DNA of 51,452 nucleotides from a virus: IMG/VR virus record IMGVR_UViG_3300046171_000140, positions 1 to 51,452 of that record; one strand, given 5' to 3'. Of this stretch, positions 1,803 through 37,022 are shown in pieces. The notes under the pieces were generated by a model. The model was not told the origin of the DNA and did no database searches. It saw only the letters and a program-made list of their open reading frames with translations. A program made the position numbers and the translations under genes. The number at the start of each line of letters is the position of its first letter. Positions within the stretch are counted from its first letter, which is position 1.

Positions 1803-1808
1803 GATTTT

Positions 1809-1919
1809 CGTTCATCTCGAAAGAGACGGAAGTAGGTTAGAAAGGAAAACCTCCCTAGTAATAGGGGTAAGCTAAGTACTAGCAATAGGAACAGAGACCG
1901 ACATCTACCGAAGGAACGC
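1809..1919 (+). ncRNA. Glutamine riboswitch (Downstream-peptide / glnA type)
   Basis: CGTTC (1809-1813) pairs with GAACG (1914-1918) as the closing stem. TCTC-GAAA-GAGA (1815-1826) forms the next hairpin, followed by GACGGAAGTAGG (1825-1836) and, before the closing strand, ACCGAAGGAACGC (1907-1919). These conserved stretches and their order match what I recall of the glutamine-sensing glnA / Downstream-peptide RNAs of cyanobacteria, their phages and marine metagenomes. The variable arm carries further hairpins (AGGTT/AACCT and CCCTA-GTAA-TAGGG at 1854-1867). CCTCC (1850-1854) could pair with the GGAGG ribosome site at 1965-1969 of the short gene behind it, a plausible switch. The ligand is inferred from the motif. 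Confidence 0.85.
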
Positions 1920-1975
1920 ATAGGCTGTCATTTAAATATGACTTAATATTAACCTATGAAAACTGGAGGCACGAT

Positions 1976-2137
1976 ATGGCTACTTACAGAGGTATCAAGG
2001 TAACTCTTGAAAATACTCACGTTGAAAAAGCGAAAGCTCAACCGGGTATTTACAGAGGTATCAAGCATGATGCAGAACCTAGTAAGTCTAAGAAAGCTAC
2101 CAACGGTATTTACCGTGGTGTTAAATGGACTAACTAA
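1976..2137 (+). CDS. 53-aa YRG-repeat peptide under riboswitch control
   Basis: A 53-aa protein with three copies of the motif YRG(I/V)K (near residues 4, 25 and 47), separated by polar linkers. It resembles the short YRGxxY-like domains (DUF4278 type) known from cyanobacteria and their phages. A strong GGAGG lies at 1965-1969. It sits directly behind the riboswitch at 1809-1919, matching the known habit of Downstream-peptide RNAs to precede small peptides. In cyanobacteria such peptides can inhibit glutamine synthetase; whether this one does so is untested. GC content is visibly higher than in the neighbouring genes, a possible sign of transfer. Confidence 0.8.
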   Translation: MATYRGIKVTLENTHVEKAKAQPGIYRGIKHDAEPSKSKKATNGIYRGVKWTN

Positions 2138-2542: not shown

Positions 2543-2722
2543 ATGACAGATTTTATTTTATTAACAACCCTAGCTTTATGTATTATTGCTATGATAGGTG
2601 AAAATTCAAACCCTAGAGGTATGAATATTTTTTGGTATAAAGTTAATGTTAAAAGAAAAACTTATTGGAAAGCTTTAACTGAATACGATTCTGGTAATAA
2701 TAAAGGCAATGGACCAAGATAA
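2543..2722 (+). CDS. Small membrane protein
   Basis: A 59-aa protein with an N-terminal hydrophobic helix (residues about 3-19, FILLTTLALCIIAMIG) followed by a polar, basic tail ending GNNKGNGPR. AAAAGG lies at a suitable distance ahead of the ATG. It is likely an inner-membrane protein with a short cytoplasmic or periplasmic tail. It overlaps the next small gene by 14 bases. No family recognised. Confidence 0.6.
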   Translation: MTDFILLTTLALCIIAMIGENSNPRGMNIFWYKVNVKRKTYWKALTEYDSGNNKGNGPR

Positions 2723-35130: not shown

Positions 35131-36117
35131 CTATCCTTCACAAGCTATACAACCCTCATCAAGTTTAATACGAGGTATTTTAACATTTACATTCTCTGCA
35201 TTTCTAGCAGCATTAGACCTAAAGTAATATAAAGACTTTAGTTTGTTCATACCATACCAGTGTACATCATTAACGTACTGCATGTACTCATCGTGAACTT
35301 CCTGTGGCTCTGTAGCTTTGGGAAGTGTAAAGAAAAGATTAACTGACTGTGCTTGACATATAAACTCTTGACGTTTAGATGCATGTTCTATAATCCATAT
35401 CTGGTCTATCTCATTAGCAGTTTTAAATACTTCTTTTTCATCATCTGTTAAGATATCAAGGTGCTGTACTGAACCTTCATTACCTGCAATGTCTTTCCAC
35501 AATGCAGTCAACTCATCTTTCTTTAAACCTTTATCTTGTAATACCTCTTCTAGGTATTTGTTCTTAACTTGGAACGAACCACTGAGAGTCTTGTGCGTAT
35601 AAACGTTAGCACGATATGGCTCAATCGAAGGAGACGTACCACCACATATGATACTAGAACTAGCGTTAGGAGCAACAGCGAGTAGATGAGCATTCCTCCT
35701 GCCACTACCATTGACATCAGGAGCTTCTCCCCTTTCGTCAGCAAGTCTTTCAGAAGCTCTGGTTGCTTGTGTCTTAATGTATTTAAATGCTTTGTAATTA
35801 AAGCCCGTAGCGAAGATACCTTCAAATGGAATGTTGCGTGATTGGAGATACGAATGGAATCCCATCGCACCAAGACCCAACGACCTTTCTCTATAAGCCG
35901 AGTAGGCAGATTTAGTAAAGCCTTCTTTGCCCTGCTTAATATGTTTTTGAAACCTTTTAAAGTTTGCATTGTACTCTCCTAAGTTATCTGTGTCAACAGC
36001 GTTATCAATGTAATGTTGTAGAACGTTGTCAAGCATGGTAATTAAATCTTCAATGAACAAAGGGTTCTCACTCCACTCATCAAAGTATTCTAAGTTTACA
36101 GAAGATAAACAACACAC
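35131..36117 (-). CDS. nrdA: Ribonucleotide reductase class I, large subunit, C-terminal part
   Basis: A 328-aa frame opening at a GTG within CCLSSVNLEYFDEW. The same frame continues upstream without stop to about 36238, giving NIDRCNEALP, LEIKQSNLCSEITLPTNEE and ERTAVCC. It therefore carries the thiyl-radical Cys (NLC) and the next conserved Cys. The C-terminal CIACEG provides the redox-active Cys pair. It joins the N-terminal part (36228-37022) if one base is restored at ATGGTAAT. Together they give about 630 residues without an N-terminal ATP-cone, so overall activity control by dATP is probably missing. Confidence 0.93.
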   Translation of the reverse strand: MCCLSSVNLEYFDEWSENPLFIEDLITMLDNVLQHYIDNAVDTDNLGEYNANFKRFQKHIKQGKEGFTKSAYSAYRERSLGLGAMGFHSYLQSRNIPFEGIFATGFNYKAFKYIKTQATRASERLADERGEAPDVNGSGRRNAHLLAVAPNASSSIICGGTSPSIEPYRANVYTHKTLSGSFQVKNKYLEEVLQDKGLKKDELTALWKDIAGNEGSVQHLDILTDDEKEVFKTANEIDQIWIIEHASKRQEFICQAQSVNLFFTLPKATEPQEVHDEYMQYVNDVHWYGMNKLKSLYYFRSNAARNAENVNVKIPRIKLDEGCIACEG

Positions 36118-36227: not shown

Positions 36228-37022
36228 CTATATTACCATGTAAGGCTCACCTGTCTCTGCTCTAGCATTAATGATCTGCCACCATAAGTCTCTAGCATTA
36301 ACAATCTTAGTAGGCTCGTTAGTCTTAGGGTCAATCAATCTCAAGTCTGCATCTTCTTCAACAGCTTTCAAGAACTCATTGGTAATGTTGATACCATTGT
36401 GAAGATTAAGATTCTTACGATTGATATCTCCACCAGATTCTTTACGCATGTTAATGAACTCTTCAATCTCTGGATGAGATATGTCCATGTAAGCTGCATA
36501 AGAACCACGTCTTGTAGTGCCTTGATTAAAGGCTAACATCTGTGAATCTACTACATGGATGAAAGGAATTGAACCAGTAGACTTACTACCGTGAGTAGTA
36601 GAAATACCGTTACTCCTAATGTCTCCCCAATATCCACCAATACCTCCACCCGAACTTGCCAACCAAATATTCTCGTCATAATGATCTGATAGACCAGTCC
36701 TGCTATCAGGTACATAATTGAGGAAACAGCTAATAGGAAGACCACGACTTGTTCCCCCGTTACTAAGTATAGGAGTGCTAAACATGAACCAACAAGAGGA
36801 ACTGTAGTGATAAAGTCTTTGAGCCAATTCAAAATCTGTGTGACCTTTGTAGGTGGCTGCGAAGACTGATGCTCTGGCAAATGCTTCTTGTGCATGTGTT
36901 TCATTCTCCCATAAATATCTATCCTTGAGTGTGTCAAGGCTAAACTTATCTAAATTTTTTTCGTTACTATAATTAATTTTTATACCAAGATATTCCTTGA
37001 TACCTACTTTATCATCTACCAT
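36228..37022 (-). CDS. nrdA: Ribonucleotide reductase class I, large subunit, N-terminal part
   Basis: A 264-aa frame ending GEPYMVI and a stop. It carries STPILSNGGTSRGLPISCFL with the first active-site Cys, and the SGGGIGGYWGDIRSNG substrate loop. The normal continuation (NID) is found directly behind in another frame, so nrdA was split by loss of one base next to ATGG (about 36238). It starts with no ATP-cone domain. The reading-frame break lies in GG, the type of spot prone to homopolymer error. A real mutation cannot be excluded. Confidence 0.93.
   Translation of the reverse strand: MVDDKVGIKEYLGIKINYSNEKNLDKFSLDTLKDRYLWENETHAQEAFARASVFAATYKGHTDFELAQRLYHYSSSCWFMFSTPILSNGGTSRGLPISCFLNYVPDSRTGLSDHYDENIWLASSGGGIGGYWGDIRSNGISTTHGSKSTGSIPFIHVVDSQMLAFNQGTTRRGSYAAYMDISHPEIEEFINMRKESGGDINRKNLNLHNGINITNEFLKAVEEDADLRLIDPKTNEPTKIVNARDLWWQIINARAETGEPYMVI

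Follow-up and report, generated by a model that had tools for sequence, protein, structure and literature searches.

The window, that is, the whole stretch of DNA that was analysed, is an entire virus record of 51,452 bases. Its genes include those for TerL, portal and capsid proteins, a primase/helicase, a DNA polymerase, and a ribonucleotide reductase, the large subunit of which is encoded by two ORFs on the minus strand (36228–37022 and 35131–36117) with a gap of about 110 bases. TerL is 66–67% identical to that of the Pelagibacter phages HTVC115P, HTVC103P, and HTVC104P, and the DNA polymerase is 50–53% identical. Based on these identities, the record is, judging from its genes, an HMO-2011-type podovirus, and homologous terminase, portal, capsid, and DNA polymerase are all present. 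A cassette consisting of a structured leader and a short gene lies among the consecutive small genes that separate TerS from TerL, and its features are as follows:

1807–1922, plus strand: type-1 glutamine aptamer (RF01739), whose P3 holds a 67-base insert; cmscan, 51.3 bits.
1809–1813, plus strand: 5′ strand of P1, pairing with 1914–1918; cmscan alignment, invariant in 36 aligned relatives.
1815–1826, plus strand: P2 hairpin, TCTC GAAA GAGA; cmscan, arm swap with 0/400 shuffles reaching the native value.
1835–1841, plus strand: 5′ strand of P3, pairing with 1904–1909; arm swap 0/400.
1842–1903, plus strand: inner P3 domain, made up of a GAAAACC junction, hairpin P3a, E-loop hairpin P3b, and a GAGACCGA junction.
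1852–1867, plus strand: P3a hairpin, overlapping the CCTCC bases; arm swap 0/400.
1870–1893, plus strand: P3b hairpin, containing a GCAA tetraloop and the second E-loop motif (AAGTA/GAA); arm swap 0/1000.
1914–1918, plus strand: 3′ strand of P1; cmscan alignment, invariant in 36 aligned relatives.
1919–1958, plus strand: putative expression-platform stem CATAGG/CCTATG around an inner hairpin at 1927–1942; minimum free-energy fold.
1965–1969, plus strand: Shine–Dalgarno sequence GGAGG, read from the sequence and also present upstream of the peptides in relatives.
1976–2137, plus strand: 53-aa YRG-repeat protein of the DUF4278 type; PF14105 at 31.2 bits (cut-off 25.3), pN/pS 0.25.

The sole Rfam match in the whole window is RF01739 on the plus strand, with a score well above the gathering threshold (51.3 against 35 bits, E-value 2e-8). 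In the cmscan alignment, P1, P2, both strands of the E-loop, and P3 are present. The architecture of the family, namely a three-way junction of P1, P2, and P3 with an E-loop and a conserved core, was recovered with its invariant columns, and P2 and P3 covary. By these sequence features, the region is a type-1 (glnA) glutamine riboswitch aptamer, and it can be expected to bind glutamine. The initial annotation had proposed a glutamine riboswitch with all conserved blocks in a phage genome, and both the RNA and its phage setting were confirmed. It had also named the Downstream-peptide (type-2) RNA and a covariance-model scan for both families. Only the glnA half of that proposal held, as RF01704 gave no match on 1700–2200 even at E ≤ 5, and the aptamer is therefore the glnA form.

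The 67-base insert in P3 is an ordered domain. In all copies, the stretch enclosed by the P3 strands has the same succession of GAAAACC, P3a, AGC, P3b (AAGUA ... GAA), and GAGACCGA. This domain is retained in the copies from phages and from SAR86 and is missing from the Rfam consensus of RF01739. Later pattern searches required GAAAACCT and GAGACCGA, and both are also present in the earlier finds based on the peptide or on the aptamer. Misalignment of the variable hairpins by MAFFT kept RNAalifold from reporting any covarying helix, and an alignment-free arm-swap test was used instead. In this test, 3′ arms are exchanged among sequences; it ignores kinship, though the changes span clades. The native duplex energies of P2, P3, and P3a were reached by none of 400 shuffles, and those of the closing pairs of P3b by none of 1000. 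Moreover, P3b contains an insertion pair: in 25 sequences, a U inserted in the 5′ strand is accompanied by an A inserted in the 3′ strand (U/A at 1873/1893), and in 14 other sequences U stands in place of A before AGUA and the additional A is absent. The inner P3 domain is thus a conserved structure with covarying helices and an RNA element that merits study for its own sake. The initial annotation had overlooked it, as it had the link to SAR86. Its layout appears to resemble that of the glutamine aptamer itself, with a hairpin followed by an AAGUA/GAA E-loop helix, so that a three-way element would be nested in P3. It is conceivable, if quite improbable, that this domain is a second sensor, in which case SAR86 and its phages would control a nitrogen regulator by a nested two-input riboswitch responding to glutamine and a second signal.

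The putative expression-platform stem ends 6 bases 5′ of the Shine–Dalgarno sequence, which starts approximately 43 bases past the aptamer match. Terminator-like sites in 1500–2600 occur on the other strand only, and translational control is therefore the likelier mode. A scan for a dedicated promoter directly upstream of the leader found none. Both types of cyanobacterial glutamine riboswitch raise expression upon glutamine binding (PMC6316151), and by analogy the window leader is taken to be an ON switch as well. Folding calculations gave a mean exposure of the Shine–Dalgarno sequence of 0.34 both with the aptamer folded and with P1 blocked, and no clear or consistent change was seen. Two candidate switching pairings were rejected. 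The pairing of CCTCC (1850–1854) with GGAGG, as put forward in the initial annotation, is correct in position, but its probability is only about 1% in the window ensemble under a pseudoknot-free model, and the CCTCC bases lie in and beside the covarying hairpin P3a. Among sampled relatives, the probability of this pairing varies from 0 to 0.72 and the pairing is predicted in some only, which does not fit a general switch. A pairing that P3 can form with the expression platform in the window (UAGGUUA/UAACCUA) was set aside as well, as it is not kept in the related loci L007 or L013.

The lack of clear switching in the folding results would fit a leader that is a degenerate relic and has lost its glutamine response. 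The score of 51 bits, compared to 55–71 bits for the short copies in SAR86, points the same way, and may merely reflect the long P3 insert. Against such decay, every core position is intact, covariation is seen in the helices, and purifying selection acts on the peptide. We consider this explanation very improbable.

The 53-aa peptide (MATYRGIKVTLENTHVEKAKAQPGIYRGIKHDAEPSKSKKATNGIYRGVKWTN) carries three YRG(I/V)K units. Its PF14105 match and its sequence agree with the earlier description of a YRG-repeat peptide behind a strong ribosome site, and the pN/pS of approximately 0.25 among close relatives indicates purifying selection and thus a real gene. Several relatives score slightly below the PF14105 cut-off. 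PF14105 is the only Pfam match of the peptide, and the inhibitory part of IF7/IF17 is not among its matches. A search of solved structures with the peptide family gave no match. The AlphaFold model, of low global confidence (pTM 0.27), suggests a series of beta hairpins centred on YRG. DUF4278 genes are the main targets of cyanobacterial glutamine riboswitches (PMC6316151).

A peptide search of viral contigs returned 27 loci, and the aptamer lies upstream in 27/27. Since the RF01739 model under-detects the long-P3 form when genomes are searched, a DNA pattern was used to collect further copies. The long-P3 aptamer pattern was found in 45 contigs, 42 of which encode the YRG peptide; one of the remaining three ends before the peptide, and two contain tandem short aptamers with another ORF. 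The inner-domain pattern is present in at least 119 viral contigs. Across all loci, 197 of its 200 occurrences, which include overlapping stretches of the same contigs, are followed by the YRG peptide with a ribosome site, and in the other 3 the contig ends first. The aptamer with its inner domain and the YRG peptide constitute a single fixed cassette. In INPHARED isolated phages, blastn and tblastn searches with the leader and the peptide gave chance-level matches only, and one further search of these phages matched the upstream gene only. In addition, tandem short glutamine aptamers precede a different small ORF (MRLWSQYCRKLAISEHQRAERIKLLWFRMYEMR) in phage contigs L034 and L069, an arrangement like that of Melnitz.

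The cassette occurs in two phage lineages that are unrelated to each other, namely HMO-2011-like podoviruses and T4-like myoviruses. The former have two peptide types, of 53 and 38 aa, which suggests that they acquired the cassette more than once. A 59-aa putative membrane protein is encoded near the cassette in the window (2543–2722) and is 75–86% identical in the T4-like contigs L014, L040, and L051; judging from this similarity, it may travel together with the cassette. An IscU-like iron-sulphur scaffold, approximately 80% identical, is likewise common to HMO-2011-like and T4-like cassette contigs (L143, L165, L179, L207; L033, L195). The genomic settings could also be read as evidence that the aptamer regulates a process internal to the phage, such as late-gene timing, with glutamine reporting the amino-acid state of the infected cell: the T4-like contigs carry the cassette together with gp23 and UvsW/UvsY genes, the window cassette sits between terminase genes, and the Melnitz glutamine riboswitch precedes other phage genes (PMC9004378). 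However, the peptide is always a DUF4278/YRG protein, which is common to SAR86 chromosomes, where it is found near nitrogen genes. We therefore regard a phage-internal role as unlikely.

In the surface ocean, SAR86 bacteria rank among the most abundant heterotrophs. A scan with the peptide alignment of one genome per species (84,980 species) found 19 loci, of which 16 are in SAR86 cluster records and two (L104, L112) in Gammaproteobacteria records that group with the SAR86 copies in the tree; the last is on a T4-like phage contig that was binned with Flavobacteriales. RF01739 above its cut-off and the same inner domain are present in 19/19 loci, including all 18 of the SAR86 type. The scan used one peptide motif and would miss more distant DUF4278 proteins, including cyanobacterial ones. 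The exact cassette pattern was found in 39 of 199 genomes of the SAR86 order (the GTDB order of the cassette-bearing genomes, centred on a SAR86 genome) versus 0 of 149 other Pseudomonadota, which are a sample of the phylum. The cassette is common to phages and SAR86.

Some of the chromosomal copies are close to nitrogen genes. In L105, the cassette and amtB are arranged tail-to-tail, and in L099 PII is encoded about 2 kb away from it. Short glutamine riboswitches, some in tandem, were detected in 54 of the 202 genomes searched in the SAR86 order, and those examined precede genes for a GlnII-type glutamine synthetase, glutamate synthase (gltB), a TorF-like porin, a TonB receptor, and DUF4278 peptides. 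Nitrogen genes thus belong to the SAR86 glutamine-riboswitch regulon; short and often tandem copies stand before the synthetase and glutamate synthase genes in L246 (1479–1602), L249, L233, and L241. Riboswitches before the TonB-dependent receptor and the TorF-like putative porin (L245, L247, L243) suggest that outer-membrane uptake is under glutamine control in SAR86. Tandem riboswitches also precede other short proteins without the YRG motif (L242, L253, L257, L259, L234), and several of these proteins end in FFPYYL or NPFYP. Associations of glnA RNA resembling this regulon were reported in 2010 from marine metagenomes (PMC2864571). A review from 2018 described glutamine riboswitches as restricted to cyanobacteria, with associations to glutamine synthetase, PII, and ammonium transporters seen solely in environmental sequences from uncultured strains (PMC6316151).

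The presence of the same RNA class before the SAR86 synthetase gene bears on a more specific function of the peptide, namely that it is a glutamine synthetase inactivating factor by which the phage shuts down host glutamine synthesis at high glutamine. IF17, a protein with a glutamine riboswitch in its leader, does have DUF4278 as its N-terminal part; this part has been reported to be dispensable for inhibition (PMC6316151). Furthermore, the synthetase of SAR86 is of a GlnII-like kind, with NF041605 as its best family, though below the model cut-off, whereas IF7 and IF17 act on cyanobacterial GSI, and no part of the phage peptide matches an inhibitory part. Because DUF4278 is reportedly dispensable in IF17 and the SAR86 enzyme is GlnII-like, inhibition of the synthetase by the peptide is a proposal that we hold to be rather unlikely.

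It had been suspected that the host is not a cyanobacterium, and this now appears probable, SAR86 being the bacterial carrier of the cassette that was found. As the bacterial relatives that were found for the cassette are SAR86 genomes, this group is in our judgement the probable host of the window phage. In a maximum-likelihood tree of the cassette, in which supports are moderate, the SAR86 copies form one group (92/78), and their sister (88/82) unites the window group and a small group of T4-like phages. A 13.9-kb HMO-2011-like phage contig (L226, G119:C6) was found in 1 of 203 SAR86-order genomes. Its portal is 58–59% identical, its similarity to the window does not exceed that of pelagiphages, and the contig may represent an infected cell or a binning error. 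SAR11 is a possible but less probable host. The corresponding explanation leaves riboswitch and peptide as described and has the phage infect SAR11 (Pelagibacterales), the cassette having come from SAR86 or T4-like phages via a shared marine gene pool. The closest isolates by TerL and DNA polymerase (HTVC115P/103P/104P) are pelagiphages that infect SAR11, a GC content of 32% fits SAR11 as well, low-GC HMO-2011 subgroups are seen by Qin et al. as probable pelagiphages (PMC9038755), and the SAR11 phage Mosig carries a short glutamine riboswitch. Nevertheless, RF01739 and DUF4278 were both missing from the close isolates HTVC115P, HTVC103P, HTVC104P, and HTVC033P when these were scanned, and the species scan of 84,980 genomes gave SAR86 and no SAR11. 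We consider this explanation rather unlikely. For the wider group, the related T4-like contig in the Flavobacteriales bin counts against a settled host. The cassette may help to assign hosts to marine phages.

Taken together, we consider the locus to be, with fair probability, a glutamine-responsive control cassette carried by a marine phage that most likely infects SAR86, and to share common ancestry with the SAR86 chromosomal cassette. In the proposed mechanism, a type-1 glutamine aptamer, stabilised or tuned by the extra P3 domain, would act in the leader of the 53-aa DUF4278 protein. High glutamine, equivalent to nitrogen sufficiency, would be sensed by the leader and switch on translation of the protein, the ON direction being assumed by analogy with the leaders of cyanobacterial gifB and the Prochlorococcus DUF4278 gene. 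The DUF4278 protein may then tune ammonium assimilation in the host. Candidate targets are the GlnII synthetase, glutamate synthase, PII, and AmtB, that is, the SAR86 proteins under the same RNA class or beside the cassette.

Glutamine riboswitches in phages are already known from Melnitz and Mosig (PMC9004378), and T4-like cyanophages are said to have them (PMC9602691, PMC9964418). The main survey of HMO-2011 phages does not mention riboswitches (PMC9038755), and the literature covered, which left most subscription journals outside, contained no paper joining a glutamine riboswitch with SAR86. As far as this literature shows, three things are new: the inner domain, the SAR86 regulon, and the fixed cassette of long-P3 aptamer and DUF4278 gene that SAR86 shares with two phage lineages. 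With the cassette in SAR86 chromosomes, the use of a regulator that had been regarded as exclusive to cyanobacteria extends to SAR86 and, probably, to its viruses. SAR86 is now a named source for riboswitch associations (GlnII, glutamate synthase, and DUF4278 genes) that were once only environmental. With the cassette in at least two unrelated phage lineages, viral interference with SAR86 nitrogen sensing becomes testable.

Compared to known systems, the window shares homologous TerS, TerL, portal, capsid, and DNA polymerase with HTVC115P, HTVC103P, and HTVC104P, which differ in having a short TerS–TerL interval. Melnitz (OM43) and Mosig (SAR11) are likewise marine phages with a glutamine riboswitch, and their hosts are not cyanobacteria. 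In those two phages, P3 is short and other small ORFs follow, and DUF4278 was not found in either genome. The window peptide resembles IF17 (GifB) in its DUF4278 similarity and glutamine-riboswitch leader; IF17 is a protein of 149 aa that acts on cyanobacterial GSI, whereas the phage protein consists of DUF4278-like YRG repeats only. The type-2 riboswitch of marine picocyanobacteria also lies upstream of a small DUF4278 protein, but the window leader does not match its model. The gifB leader of Synechocystis, a type-1 riboswitch (RF01739), has all core blocks in the P1-P2-P3 arrangement upstream of a DUF4278 gene, as does the window. Unlike such cyanobacterial type-1 riboswitches, the RNA described here has a P3 with a conserved inner domain that brings its own hairpin and a second E-loop, and its setting is a phage and the Gammaproteobacteria (SAR86).
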